Assembly (NCBI RefSeq): GCF_014197445.1
Contig: NZ_JACIFO010000007.1
Span: 62,001-126,000 of the forward strand
Origin: Mesonia hippocampi
GTDB taxonomy: Bacteria > Bacteroidota > Bacteroidia > Flavobacteriales > Flavobacteriaceae
Length of the DNA stretch: 64,000 bases
Reading direction: 5' to 3'
Shown here piece by piece: positions 1 to 57,295 of the stretch. The stretch's first letter is position 1. The number at the start of each line of letters is the position of its first letter. Under the pieces are notes generated by a model, which was not told the DNA's origin, ran no database searches, and saw only the letters and a list, made by a program, of their open reading frames with translations. The position numbers and the translations under genes are program-made.

Positions 1-2136
1 AGACTCCGCATCAATGAGTTGCTGCGTATATGCCACCCACAATAGTTTCTGTGTATGATCACTTCGATTAGCCAGCCACTCTATTTCGGGCTGATCTTTA
101 GATACTGGTCTATCATCAACTGTTATATACTGATCTATTAATTTATAAATATAAACCTTACTCGCTACCTCATCGAATGCTATTCCATCGACGACAATAG
201 TTCCCTTACTAAAGTAATCTTTCAATGCATTAACCTTAGGCAAAGCCTCTTGAATCTCTGCGATATTCTGCTTGTTTAAACTATTCTCAGTCTTGTTGAC
301 GACCATATTAATAAGATAGGTCTTCGGCAACTCTGTATTATCGTAAAAATCATGAAATAACAAGTCTAGTACACAAGTCTCAACATACTGCATACAAGCC
401 TTAGTAAGCGTATCAGAACGATTATTTTGTTTGTCTAAATACACAATATGATTCGCTAAAACAGCCATTTCTGTTGCCCCAAATTTGCGCATATTTAATA
501 GAAAGTCGTCATCATCTTCATAGTCGGTATTAGGTAATACTAGAAACTTTTCGGGTATAACCTCTACAGCAAGTGCTCTATTAACCTCTATTAACTCCGC
601 AATAGCATCTAATTGCTCTTGGTAGACATCATCATTATACCTTCCAAATGAAGCAAGGACATTTTCTAATTCCTTATCCCATGAAATGGCATAGCGTTCT
701 CTAAACTCAAATACAGAACACAACTTGTATTTTTTAGCGCAAAGCTTCTCCACATCATCTTCAAAAGGATTACCATCATTTAAGACAAAAAACACATCTA
801 AAAAGCGCAACAACATCTCAGCATCAAGCTCATTTTGACCATTTGCCTCTAAGTATTTCTTATACTTCTTGAATAATTTCTTCAAAACCTGAGCCAACTC
901 CTCCCAAAGACTTTCCATATCATATATGAAATCAAAACCTTTTAGCAACTCTTGCTTACTATACTGCAAATGTCTAAATATGTTGACTTTTTCTATTTGC
1001 GGTAATTTGTCAATGCTCTGCTTACCGACAATATAATTCCACAATACCTCTCCATTAGTTAACTGATCTTTAAAAAAAGCTTCCCAACCAAGAAATGGAT
1101 TCTTCAGCTCTTTACTTTTTGGTTTTTTGAATTGATTTAGCTTCTTATCCTTGCCAATAGCTACCAGAGCTTGTTCACCTACTTTTTCGCAGACATAAGT
1201 TGTTAACTGTTCTACCTCTTGATAGGCAGGTAAACTAACAAAGGTATGTTCCATAAAAGCATATACATCAAAGTCATCATCCCAACTATTGTATGGGTGC
1301 TCACTAGCTAATATATCCATGACAAAATCCTGAATAGGATTACTTACCTGGTCATCTGGGTGATTTGAACGCTTCAGATAAGGCATATTTTCAAAGCGCT
1401 CAACCAAAGCGTCTTTAAACGCCTGATAATTAGATTCATTTTCTCTAATATATTTTAATAACTCGAAAGAGCGTCCTTCTATTTTTTCATACGTTCCGTA
1501 TTCTGTAGAATATCCAAGCATTTGCTCACGTATCTCACCGTAATCACAATAGCAAAACGCCTTGAGCAAATACGTATAATTCTCCTGCTTTTCCGTCCAA
1601 CTTCTCATCAATATACGAGCCTCTGGCATGTGCTCATCATCCCAATAAGGAACATAAAAACAACCCAACAAATAACCGTATTCAGGATAAGTGCGTACAG
1701 ACAAATAAATTGGTTCAAGACCAAATGGTTGCTCACAAGTAATCCACATCTCTGACGAATCATTAAGCCTTCTAGCAAAAAGCCCTATGACCTCACAAGC
1801 TTTAAGTACCTCCTGCTTTAATTCAGCAAATGTATTGGCTATAGCAAAAAACAAAGTCTCCGTCAACAGTGACTCTACTAGATTAGTCTCTTCAGCGGGA
1901 CGAAAACAAGAAATAATTTCTTTGGTCAATGCCTGCTCAATCATTGGATGATCGTTAAAAATAGCTAACTCAATAGTTTCTCTATTGGGTCTAAACTGAA
2001 TCACACAATAGTTTTGCACAAAACCTTTGTTATCAATCAGTAATTCACAGTATTGATTCAAAGCTTGCTTTATAGAAGCAGGATCATCAATTACGTAATC
2101 TATAATGTATTTAGGTGGAAATTCTTCGTATGCCAT
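1..2136 (-). CDS. Giant acidic protein of unknown function, paralog A (3' end outside window)
   Basis: An open frame runs from ATG at 2136 to the left window edge without a stop (at least 712 residues), so the gene is truncated only by the window. I do not recognise a family. It is homologous along its length to the next gene upstream: N-terminal motif around residues 21-39 (SxKxALNxY...LLxDN), YPEYGYLLG at 150-158, PYWDDEH at 163-169, and LRFLDVFF further on. There is no signal peptide or membrane segment, so it is probably cytoplasmic. It lies 75 bp downstream of its paralog with no clear promoter in its own direction between them, so cotranscription is likely. Sure that it is a gene; function unknown. 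Confidence 0.85.
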   Translation of the reverse strand, partial: MAYEEFPPKYIIDYVIDDPASIKQALNQYCELLIDNKGFVQNYCVIQFRPNRETIELAIFNDHPMIEQALTKEIISCFRPAEETNLVESLLTETLFFAIANTFAELKQEVLKACEVIGLFARRLNDSSEMWITCEQPFGLEPIYLSVRTYPEYGYLLGCFYVPYWDDEHMPEARILMRSWTEKQENYTYLLKAFCYCDYGEIREQMLGYSTEYGTYEKIEGRSFELLKYIRENESNYQAFKDALVERFENMPYLKRSNHPDDQVSNPIQDFVMDILASEHPYNSWDDDFDVYAFMEHTFVSLPAYQEVEQLTTYVCEKVGEQALVAIGKDKKLNQFKKPKSKELKNPFLGWEAFFKDQLTNGEVLWNYIVGKQSIDKLPQIEKVNIFRHLQYSKQELLKGFDFIYDMESLWEELAQVLKKLFKKYKKYLEANGQNELDAEMLLRFLDVFFVLNDGNPFEDDVEKLCAKKYKLCSVFEFRERYAISWDKELENVLASFGRYNDDVYQEQLDAIAELIEVNRALAVEVIPEKFLVLPNTDYEDDDDFLLNMRKFGATEMAVLANHIVYLDKQNNRSDTLTKACMQYVETCVLDLLFHDFYDNTELPKTYLINMVVNKTENSLNKQNIAEIQEALPKVNALKDYFSKGTIVVDGIAFDEVASKVYIYKLIDQYITVDDRPVSKDQPEIEWLANRSDHTQKLLWVAYTQQLIDAES

Positions 2137-2211
2137 CTCTTTATTTTTGAAAGAAACTTATCGACTCACAATATCAAAATTGTAAACCTATAATAACTTA
2201 TTTTTATTTTA

Positions 2212-5200
2212 TTAATTTAAATATGCTCTAACTTTTCTTGATTGATCATCAGCAAAAAGCGCTAAATAAGAAGCTAATTCTTCGTGCTTTTTAATCAGAA
2301 CAACAAGTTTTATGCGTTGCTTTACTCCTGAGTTCGGAAGAAATGCAGGTAATGCCCCTTGCTTGATAAACTCAACCACTTGATCTTGATACACTTCGAT
2401 ATCTTCATATCTCAATAAGAAACTCAACCAATGGTTCGTATCTGTCTCAAATGGCAATAAGTTCTCTAACAACATTCTAGGGGCATTTTCTTCGGCTAAG
2501 TCCATTAAGCGACTATTCATCTCATCAGAAAACGCTAAGTAATCTTCTATACGTTCTTGCTTTGACTCAACCAAACTTCTAACGTAAGCATAGTTGAGAT
2601 ACTCTTCTGCTATTTCAAAACCATCAGGGCTATGATTAAGCAATAACTTCATCAAGTGCTCTTGCTTTTCTTTGTCTAACGACCAATAGTGCTGACCGAT
2701 ACTTGTCATTTTATATTTAGGAGATCCTGTATCTAAGTCAAATACAGGAATATCTTTTTTCATAAGTACCAACATGTCCGCTAAAGCGAAAGTACCACTC
2801 ATATAATCTGTAAATCGCTGTATCAACTCGTCAATGATCACTTGATCTCGACTACTTGAATTAATAGAGAAAAAAGTTTTCATACATCGATCAAAAGACT
2901 CCGGCTGATCAAAGGTGAAACGCGGGTGTCTCAGTGCTAGATTGACAAAAAACTTAATGCGTTCATGTTCATGAATATAATACATTCCCTTATCTAACGC
3001 AATTGCTTTTCTCTTTCTTGCCCCACCAATCATACCTCCATCTTCATCATCTATCTCATCATACAAATCTAACCAGGTTAGATACTCTGCTACATCACAC
3101 GGATCAGCAATACTATGTTTTGATTGTGCTTGTGTCATTTGAAAAGCATACAGCTGGTCTACAGGTACTTTAGCTCTTTTTAAATCCTCATAGAAGCGTT
3201 CTCCTGCTTGATAATCGTCAAAAGCTATAACCGACATATCATCTGAATATACTTTCCCTATCAGCTTAAAAATACGTTGAGGAGCTAAAGCAACCAATAC
3301 TTTAAATATTCTATCTGCATGTGAGCTAATTGGAGGCATCAGACCACGCATCCAATAAGCACATAAAACAAAAGACTGAAAACTATCTCCTCTTTTAAAC
3401 AAGCTATAACTCTTCTGATGCTCAGAAATTGCATTAAATACAAACGGACCTCTATAACACTCTTCTCTATAAAGTGATTTTTCTAAAAGGGCAACTACTT
3501 GCTCTTGACTAGCCTCAGGGGTATTGGGGTTGACAAAGTAATCTTTAATAAGTTTCTTTTGTTCTTTCGTAATTCGATCAGTATCTAACGAATCCTTTAA
3601 TTTTTCATACGCTTTCTCCCAAGGCCCTTCTTTCACAAACTCTAATAGAGCGCCTGTATAATCGTCGAAGTGCATACTGGCTCTATCTAATGACAAAAGA
3701 TAAGCTGCTAAAGTAATAGCTCCAACCTTGTCTCTCTTCCAATCTGAGCAGTCATAAGCCTCTCTTCCTCTCTGCTTAATAACTTTGTTAATATACTTTA
3801 AAGCATCATTATCATTGGTATAACCTGTAATCCCAAAACTAGTTAACTTTAGCTTCTTTTCCTTTTTCTTATCTCCTTTAATACCTTTTTTACTATATCG
3901 CGCATAGAATTCATCTTTCGTTAATAGCACATTGTCCTCTTGATCTTCTTCTCCTGTCAAAACTACTTCTATACCCTTGCCTAGTTTTTTTACTCCTAAC
4001 AATCGGAAAAAGACATCTAGTATACGTAAGAACATTTCTTCATTAGTAGTAAAACTAGTCTGTAAAGTTGCTTTTTCATTGTCTTTTTTACTAAAAATTC
4101 GAGAGATGAAGTTTCTAGTATATTGTATATCCTCTTGCTGCTCATCATCATTTAATAAATCATAAATTACGCTATTTAAGATAGAGTCTAATGAATCATT
4201 AATCTCAGACTCTGGATCTATTTTATTGAGGTAATAAAACATCTGATAATAGAAGTTTCTAGCGTGCTGCTTAGCTATAGGCAACAATTCTGTCTTAACG
4301 ATATCCTCTAATATTTCAGGATTATCGCCTTGTTCAATAAAGTTCCAAAGCTGCTCACCACGATCCAAGGCTAAGATAAACTCTTTTAAATTTCTTACTC
4401 CATCTCCTTTATACGAGTCTTTTTTAAAGAACTCACTCATATCAATTTCTAATTGAGCACTTTCATCATATCTAACAAGTAGCCTACCTACCTTCGCTTC
4501 TACATACTCCTGCAAGTCCATTGCTTCATTCTCTAAAGTATCCGTAATAAAGAAGGTCTGTAAATCTTGTTGATATTCATCATCTTCTTCATTGTAATCC
4601 TCTGAAGCCAGTAAGGTGATATACAAGTCAAGAACAGGGTTTTGTTGCTCTATACGCTCCTCACGGGAATACATTAAAACAGGCTCTTGTTTAAAGCGTT
4701 CTAAAACTTCTTCTTTAAACCATTCATATTCAGCTGGATTAGCCTTTAAGTGGTTTAATAAGCTAGGTAAGCTTGTATCTAATAATGCTGTATAATCTTC
4801 ATTCCACTGATCAGGAAGCGTATCCATATATATTCTGAAATGCTGGTTATCACACCATATATATGCCTTAATCATATCTCTACTCCACCCATACTTCTCA
4901 ACTAAAGTATATAAAAACTTCTCATAACCTGATAGGTGCTCACTGTCCCAATATGGAATCATGTATTGCCCCACTAAGTAGGCATACTCAGGATAAGTAT
5001 AAGCTACCATAAAAAGTGCCTCGACACCAAATATATTCATATCATCTACCCAAACTGCATCTGTATCATTTCGCCCTCTCATCAAAGCTACCATCGCCTT
5101 TGCCGTCTCAACTATTGAAGATTTAAGTTCTGGGTGCTCTAAAACCGAAGCGAAAAAGATAGCTTCCGAAATATATACTTCTGTCTGGTCTGTAATCTCA

Positions 5201-5457
5201 TCTGTAAAATAAGTATCTTCCGAACCAAAGCTAAGCGCTAGTTTTAACAGCTCTTGATTCGCTACATCCCATACCTGTAATCGCCTTAATCCCTCTTTAG
5301 TTTTTGCTTGAAACTCTACATCAAACATACCAAACAAACCATGGGTAAATGCAAGATTGTCATCTAACAACTGTCTATATGCATTCAATGCAATTTTCAT
5401 TGATTCAGCATTTCCTAACTCAAAGGGGATAACTTTACTCTTATCAAATTGATTCAT
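2212..5457 (-). CDS. Giant acidic protein of unknown function, paralog B (1081 aa)
   Basis: A complete 1081-residue protein rich in D, E, Y and L, with no signal peptide or transmembrane segment and no nucleotide-binding or catalytic motif that I can recognise. It shares collinear motifs with the downstream gene: SMKIALNAYRQLLDDN near residues 19-34, YPEYAYLVG at 155-163, PYWDSEH at 168-174 and LRILDVFF in the middle. A lysine-rich stretch near the centre (GDKKKEKKLKL) looks like a linker. The start is supported by a TAnnTTTG promoter element about 30 bp upstream. The helical, repeat-poor composition suggests a scaffold or HEAT-like protein, but this is a guess. Confidence 0.9.
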   Translation of the reverse strand: MNQFDKSKVIPFELGNAESMKIALNAYRQLLDDNLAFTHGLFGMFDVEFQAKTKEGLRRLQVWDVANQELLKLALSFGSEDTYFTDEITDQTEVYISEAIFFASVLEHPELKSSIVETAKAMVALMRGRNDTDAVWVDDMNIFGVEALFMVAYTYPEYAYLVGQYMIPYWDSEHLSGYEKFLYTLVEKYGWSRDMIKAYIWCDNQHFRIYMDTLPDQWNEDYTALLDTSLPSLLNHLKANPAEYEWFKEEVLERFKQEPVLMYSREERIEQQNPVLDLYITLLASEDYNEEDDEYQQDLQTFFITDTLENEAMDLQEYVEAKVGRLLVRYDESAQLEIDMSEFFKKDSYKGDGVRNLKEFILALDRGEQLWNFIEQGDNPEILEDIVKTELLPIAKQHARNFYYQMFYYLNKIDPESEINDSLDSILNSVIYDLLNDDEQQEDIQYTRNFISRIFSKKDNEKATLQTSFTTNEEMFLRILDVFFRLLGVKKLGKGIEVVLTGEEDQEDNVLLTKDEFYARYSKKGIKGDKKKEKKLKLTSFGITGYTNDNDALKYINKVIKQRGREAYDCSDWKRDKVGAITLAAYLLSLDRASMHFDDYTGALLEFVKEGPWEKAYEKLKDSLDTDRITKEQKKLIKDYFVNPNTPEASQEQVVALLEKSLYREECYRGPFVFNAISEHQKSYSLFKRGDSFQSFVLCAYWMRGLMPPISSHADRIFKVLVALAPQRIFKLIGKVYSDDMSVIAFDDYQAGERFYEDLKRAKVPVDQLYAFQMTQAQSKHSIADPCDVAEYLTWLDLYDEIDDEDGGMIGGARKRKAIALDKGMYYIHEHERIKFFVNLALRHPRFTFDQPESFDRCMKTFFSINSSSRDQVIIDELIQRFTDYMSGTFALADMLVLMKKDIPVFDLDTGSPKYKMTSIGQHYWSLDKEKQEHLMKLLLNHSPDGFEIAEEYLNYAYVRSLVESKQERIEDYLAFSDEMNSRLMDLAEENAPRMLLENLLPFETDTNHWLSFLLRYEDIEVYQDQVVEFIKQGALPAFLPNSGVKQRIKLVVLIKKHEELASYLALFADDQSRKVRAYLN

Positions 5458-5487
5458 CTACGATCTTATTTCGAAATTTATATATTT

Positions 5488-5495
5488 CAAAAATA
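5488..5495 (-). promoter_or_regulatory. Flavobacterial -7 element before the giant paralog operon
   Basis: On the minus strand this reads TATTTTTG, a perfect match to TAnnTTTG. The expected transcription start lies near 5482, giving a 5' UTR of about 25 nt before the ATG at 5457. Confidence 0.6.
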
Positions 5496-5630
5496 GAAAC
5501 TTCTTTTTAGTAATATACAGACTTATATTAGGTAAAGTGCTATATCACGGAATTAGGGGATACGAGTGTAAATGAGAAATAAGGGCGTGTAAATTCTTAT
5601 AGACGAAAAGCAGTTTGGTATGTAATCTTG

Positions 5631-57069: not shown

Positions 57070-57141
57070 GGTCCGTTCGTCTAGGGGTTAGGACGCCAGG
57101 TTTTCATCCTGGTAACAGGGGTTCGAATCCCCTACGGACTA
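57070..57141 (+). tRNA. tRNA-Glu (anticodon TTC), copy 1
   Basis: A 72-nt cloverleaf: acceptor GGTCCGT with ACGGACT (terminal G-U pair), D-arm GTCTAGGGGTTAGGAC, anticodon arm CCAGG-TTTTCAT-CCTGG with TTC, T-arm AGGGG-TTCGAAT-CCCCT. No CCA is encoded. Confidence 0.97.
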
Positions 57142-57186
57142 CTACTTAAAATTTCTTCGGAAATTTAATTTTGAAATAATGATAAT

Positions 57187-57258
57187 GGTCCGTTCGTCTA
57201 GGGGTTAGGACGCCAGGTTTTCATCCTGGTAACAGGGGTTCGAATCCCCTACGGACTA
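57187..57258 (+). tRNA. tRNA-Glu (anticodon TTC), copy 2
   Basis: Identical in all 72 positions to the first copy, 45 bp downstream and without a separate promoter, so both come from one precursor. CCA is not encoded. Confidence 0.97.
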
Positions 57259-57295
57259 CTTTTTAGTTTAAGGAAAAACGAAATATTAACGAGGT

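Follow-up and report, generated by a model that had tools for sequence, protein, structure and literature searches.

The gene pair

The left end of the window (the whole stretch of 64,000 nucleotides of Mesonia hippocampi DNA that was analysed) is occupied by two adjacent genes on the minus strand, which we call B and A; B comes first and A follows 75 bp behind it. The coding features, together with the last bases that they share with a second genome, are as follows.

1..2136, minus strand: gene A, first 712 of 1312 codons (open frame and contig reading)
2137..2211, minus strand: spacer between B and A, 75 bp, with 75/75 bases the same as in the Myroides pelagicus copy
2212..5457, minus strand: gene B, complete, 1081 aa (open frame)
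5458..5461, minus strand: last four unbroken bases (GTAG) common with Myroides upstream of the B start (alignment)

The earlier note had given these proteins as 1081 residues and at least 712 residues. The first of these numbers is the complete B, while the second has to be raised to 1312 aa for A in the whole contig, where the gene extends 1803 bp to the left of the window (to G000:C7:60198). When the full A is compared with B using BLASTP, 132 of 498 positions are identical (27%, E 5e-34), covering residues 5-452 of A and 3-486 of B, and the motifs that had been named in the earlier note are collinear in a four-sequence alignment. Both proteins are acidic (pI 4.74 for A and 4.80 for B), and neither contains a membrane-like stretch, the largest 19-residue Kyte-Doolittle mean being 1.33 and 1.29 respectively. 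The description of the two as adjacent, diverged, acidic paralogs lacking a membrane segment is thus borne out by the alignments, the pI values and the hydropathy maxima. Homology is not claimed for the C-terminal halves of A and B, because the hhalign signal is weak (E 0.0046, probability 7.5%, with E 0.83 in the reversed control).

The structure model of B, built from three sequences, consists mostly of helices with a mean pLDDT of 41.6, and the model of the last 172 residues of A (using the Myroides copy) contains strands only, with a mean pLDDT of 45.7. Both models are too poor to build on; A and B are probably mostly alpha-helical, with A carrying in addition a beta-rich, DUF3859-like tail, and at such low confidence the models speak neither for nor against the multi-subunit scaffold suggested in the earlier note.

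Relation to known protein families

Neither A nor B is matched over the curated threshold by any model of Pfam or NCBIfam. PADLOC gives 0 families for the two at E up to 1, so that none of its models of known anti-phage defence proteins is matched, and PHROGs gives weak matches alone (best E 0.0071). The claim that there is no known domain in the pair holds at the curated thresholds for both, and for A it needs one qualification, namely a weak match to DUF3859 (PF12975) in the part of A that lies outside the window. Residues 1179-1310 of A align with positions 6-123 of the 123 in the profile at E 0.011 and 16 bits; the score in the genome search is 21.3 bits, and the second piece of a Vibrio campbellii relative is matched at E 0.002 and 18.5 bits, all of these, like every match found here, being below the curated cut-off of 24 bits. 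The DUF3859 fold is a beta-sandwich. Within the pair the likeness to this family is confined to the end of A; B has no match and the other ~1170 residues of A are outside the matched region. The name DUF3859 is not mentioned in the literature searched.

Other searches were also carried out at the levels of domain, structure and RNA. A RecG model of NCBIfam matches B weakly (E 0.25), and we take this as a chance match and do not consider B to be related to RecG. No solved structure has a sequence match to A or B, and the profile of the N-terminal region finds two solved structures, both at E 0.4. In the stretches L004 (the window genome) and L005 (the Myroides locus), nothing scores over the gathering score of Rfam. 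As judged by sequence, A and B belong to a protein family that matches no known family in the libraries searched and that has members in Bacteroidota and Vibrionaceae.

Probable exchange with Myroides pelagicus

A scan of the species genome collection for close relatives gives one locus, that of Myroides pelagicus SM1T, the window's own record possibly having been left out of the scan. Myroides pelagicus belongs to Flavobacteriaceae. The window and the Myroides copy align over 7265 bp without gaps and with 77 mismatches (98.94% identity, BLASTN), and the matching stretch reaches from 4 bp upstream of the start codon of B to 1 bp beyond the stop of A. The pair is together in Myroides, with the order B-A and the 75-bp spacer the same as in the window. 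There is no other BLASTN match between the Myroides locus (L005) and the window, L003 or L004. Among the Myroides neighbours compared by protein, the one in common is a repeat protein (read as MORN/YwqK-like, 25% identity, L003:5303-7813 and L005:15435-17357), which in Myroides comes immediately after A and in the window genome is some 8 kb off.

The pattern of transfer is unusual in that the coding block is 98.9% identical, the promoter is ~62% alike and the downstream flank is unrelated. For the sequence upstream of B, the local alignment score between the window and Myroides is higher than all of 1000 shuffles with one scoring and all but 2 with another, and for the downstream flank it is no better than in shuffles. 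The 61 genomes of the Myroides genus group that we searched are an even draw from a larger group, and the genus of the window has 16, so the two hosts are in different genera in that taxonomy. A near-identical pair that is found in another genus with other neighbours is probably a transferable accessory module, and the alignment makes it probable that different genera have exchanged the B-A coding block in recent times.

The same comparison bears on an explanation that involves no transfer, in which the two would be an ordinary old housekeeping or surface gene pair that was lost in most lineages. The base composition agrees with this, the G+C content of the pair (35.6%) being near that of the Myroides flanks (34.6%) and of the measured stretches of the window genome (33.9% and 33.0%), with third-position G+C of 0.30 and 0.32 near the top of the range of the neighbouring genes (0.22-0.31). 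An old pair would, however, have to account for the near-identical DNA in different genera with different neighbours and for the lack of the pair in the other 15 genomes of the genus, and we regard this explanation as very improbable.

The mismatches are not evenly spread within the exchanged block. The first 246 bases, a stretch that was picked after seeing the data, contain 13 mismatches vs 2.6 expected (P 4e-6), and dS falls from 0.25 in B codons 1-80 to 0.055 in codons 81-450 and 0.019 in the remainder of B, with 0.028 in A. These uneven values may be read as a mosaic, in which an older and diverged start and promoter would be joined to a recently exchanged remainder. The crude dN/dS between the window and Myroides is 0.13 for B and 0.15 for A, which indicates that both proteins are maintained under purifying selection.

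Genomic neighbourhood

The A stop is followed by a terminator-like hairpin with 16 base pairs (L004 2166-2131), although the scan that lists such sites proves little by itself, with 4 terminator-like sites in the stretch vs 3.5 in shuffles. Past the hairpin is a gene with a DJ-1/PfpI domain on the opposite strand, and the genes further left are interpreted as porin-like, as belonging to Trk potassium uptake and as a sensor pair of the KdpDE type. From the hairpin, the opposite strand of the DJ-1/PfpI gene and the genes that follow it, the operon consists of B and A only. The earlier note had proposed a system that continues to the left of the window; what continues there is only the rest of gene A, followed by the hairpin, the DJ-1/PfpI gene and the genes just listed. 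The part of that proposal that survives is the pair itself, as two co-oriented paralogs of an unknown family that are kept together in a second genome; the larger system is not supported. A partner set recurring in related genomes had also been suggested as a check, and by a reading of the neighbours no such set recurs beside the relatives.

On the other side of the pair is an arginase-family gene, with HutI beside the arginase-family gene in all 15 other genomes of the genus. In the three of these 15 that were read further (one of them on a contig that ends 3.7 kb beyond the arginase gene), peroxiredoxin and thioredoxin are on the far side of the arginase gene in 3/3, and the B-A pair and the DJ-1/PfpI, porin-like, Trk and Kdp genes are not found in the stretches taken. 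With the block on the arginase side conserved and B-A missing from the relatives, the pair lies at the border of a conserved stretch. Next to it, neither the window genome nor Myroides has a recognised partner whose known function is in defence or stress. Elsewhere in the window, positions 57070-57259 hold two tandem tRNA-Glu (TTC) genes, 44 bp apart.

Distribution and distant relatives

The pair is rare. A is matched in 1/16 genomes of the window's genus, which is the window's own genome (0/15 for the others), and B in 2/299 family genomes, one of them false, leaving 1/299. The N-terminal profile is matched in 1/61 genomes around Myroides and in 1/395 genomes of the phylum. These genome sets overlap, and the true positive is always the window genome or Myroides itself. 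We also considered a decayed B homologue in one family genome (G105, E 6e-4, with stops), and reject it because the alignment runs antisense to a gene for phosphoenolpyruvate carboxylase; with the family profile there is no match in that frame, though B alone aligns at E 1.4e-6 in a small test.

Outside the phylum, relatives are found on replicons of Vibrio and Photobacterium (Vibrio campbellii, Photobacterium sp. GJ3 and Vibrio coralliilyticus), with B matched in 5 of 72,556 plasmid records and A in 2, all Vibrionaceae. In the V. campbellii and Photobacterium relatives it is the N-terminal region that resembles A or B (22-28% identity), and in V. coralliilyticus the likeness is to the middle region of B (22-24%). 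They differ from the pair in being one gene with other neighbours, split into two frames in V. campbellii, and the Photobacterium and V. campbellii relatives differ also in having extra C-terminal sequence past the DUF3859-like part. The two V. campbellii frames (836 and 524 aa, L013:11929-16043) together match the single Photobacterium gene and sit between a Wzz/Wzc-type gene and a DUF1835 gene. On the V. coralliilyticus plasmid (L014:4556-17940), nine copies of a 47-nt integron-cassette-like repeat lie between small genes, and the relative of B is in a repeat-free stretch between two blocks of these repeats. We do not take the V. coralliilyticus relatives to be integron cassettes, as repeats are present on both sides and yet none is seen, by eye, at the ends of the gene pair.

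Such a distribution raises the possibility that B-A is an anti-phage defence operon, in which large helical proteins would sense infection and stop growth from a transferable island. The pair is sporadic, transferred, made up of two genes and apparently regulated; its relatives are on plasmids, one of them between the cassette-like repeat blocks; and the first V. campbellii frame matches, below threshold, the N-terminal family of PvuRts1I-like restriction endonucleases (PF21598, E 0.0052, 17.4 bits vs 27). Against these points are the empty PADLOC result, the absence over threshold of any nuclease, NTPase, protease or membrane domain in A and B, the absence of recognised defence genes adjoining the pair in either genome (by a reading of the neighbours), and the phage and viral collections, where 0/50,697 phage records match A or B and the viral contigs contain no confirmed relative. 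Taken together, an anti-phage defence operon appears unlikely.

Downstream of the Photobacterium relative, in the same orientation and after a gap of ~400 bp, are two TelA and two TerD genes. B-A could for this reason be imagined as an accessory part of a Ter/TelA-type stress response, for which these adjoining stress genes are the likeness. The gap and the single locus count against it, as does the fact that neither gene was noticed beside the pair in the stretches read from the window genome and Myroides, where some of the neighbours were given to Pfam. A and B themselves match neither TerD nor TelA. We hold this assignment to be quite unlikely.

Promoter and candidate operator

The features upstream of B, numbered relative to the start inferred from the -7 element, are as follows.

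5473-5480, minus strand: weaker -7 candidate, 7 of 8 positions
5488..5495, minus strand: -7 element TATTTTTG, consensus TAHHTTTG at 8 of 8 positions, leader 26 nt
5522..5534, minus strand: second conserved box TACCTAATATAAG, at -51 to -39
5542..5563, minus strand: operator-like imperfect palindrome, 7 of 11 positions symmetric, centre -69.5

The Flavobacterium-type -7 consensus, TAHHTTTG, is taken from PMC6847099. Agreement with it at 8/8 positions upstream of B supports the earlier claim that a promoter precedes the first gene. Sigma-70-like sites are no commoner than in shuffles (21 vs 30.3).

The operator-like features can be combined into a 33-bp pattern, which consists of the palindrome-like operator, 7 nt, and then TACCnAATnTAnG. 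When up to 3 mismatches are allowed, the two genomes contain the pattern three times, each time as an exact copy, and the reversed pattern 0 times; the three sites precede the window pair, the Myroides pair and a Myroides gene of 131 aa that is 12 kb from that pair. Because the pattern was built from the three sites, the exact fit is by construction, and its evidential weight comes from there being no near miss in the two genomes and from the agreeing spacing to the -7 element, which was not used in building it. The -7 elements at the three sites agree with the consensus at 8, 8 and 7 of 8 positions. The operator centre is at -69.5 in the window and at -68.5 at both Myroides sites, with the second box from -51/-50 to -39/-38; using the weaker -7 candidate of the window would shift the operator centre to -84.5. 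The symmetry is 7/11 in the window, 8/11 at the Myroides pair and perfect (11/11) at the 131-aa gene. By itself the palindrome of the window is weak, since 843 of the ~64,000 stretches of 22 bases there match or exceed its symmetry. Compared over the distance between operator and start codon, the three promoters show 62, 65 and 63% likeness with gaps counted, so the two B-A promoters are no closer to each other than either is to the promoter of the 131-aa gene.

The pattern does not mark a large regulon. A shorter pattern with 3 mismatches is found at 13 places vs 14 for the reversed control, so that apart from the exact sites it behaves like the control. Of 397 family genomes, 53 contain the 33-bp pattern when up to 3 mismatches are tolerated, at 55 places in all (1 exact, at the window locus, 2 with 2 mismatches and 52 with 3), vs 53 places for the reversed control. 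With no fourth site in the two genomes, and with the 54 near misses in the family about as many as in that control, we reject the idea of the operator as such a mark. The viral contigs contain no exact 33-bp site.

The 131-aa gene downstream of the third operator site has no Pfam match and is not present in the window or L003. In Myroides it is the first of several genes in one direction at 4-12 kb from the pair (L063:4861-12683), followed by genes for a 189-aa protein with sub-threshold zinc-ribbon matches, an acidic 1287-aa protein, a DUF1266 protein and a TPR-like protein. A Deinococcus plasmid contains a stretch that resembles the 189-aa protein (39.7% over 194 positions), and immediately after it comes a match to the N-terminal 100 residues of the 1287-aa giant (36%). 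This zinc-ribbon and giant operon is not taken to be under control of the operator, as a terminator is read, by eye, between it and the 131-aa gene.

Proposed role and significance

The B-A pair is not an artefact. It is an accessory operon of rare occurrence, which has a clear candidate for its control element and whose pattern of transfer is unusual. Combining this information, the explanation that we prefer, and put forward tentatively, is that of a regulated accessory operon that has been exchanged horizontally and encodes two soluble, mostly helical paralogous proteins, perhaps with a conditional role in stress or defence. The layout would be a compact one of operator, promoter, B, A and terminator, encoding two paralogous acidic proteins with no membrane segments. 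A regulator, most likely an activator, would bind upstream and over the -33 region, at the palindrome near -69 and the second box at ~-50 to -38, and switch the operon on; the palindrome could instead bind a repressor. B and A would be made together and form a hetero-assembly in the cytosol, the tail of A may serve as an add-on binding domain, and the assembly would act in a conditional stress or defence response and not in housekeeping. The role in stress or defence is suggested by the way the pair has been transferred, by a promoter that looks regulated and by the Photobacterium locus with its TelA and TerD genes. It is a guess of moderate strength, and that locus is one case.

What these observations provide is an uncharacterised protein family, in Bacteroidota and Vibrionaceae, that now has an operon and a testable control element. 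The transfer pattern raises the question of how the exchange stopped so near to the gene ends. The operator, along with the 131-aa gene that has the same operator, gives a direct way into the question of what turns the system on. A bolder reading, to which we give a low probability, is of a new two-protein accessory system whose coding block recombines between genera under promoters that have a common operator layout and otherwise resemble each other no more closely than unrelated promoters within a single regulon do. If this is true, B-A would be a transferable coding cassette that is plugged into a common infection- or stress-responsive control circuit.
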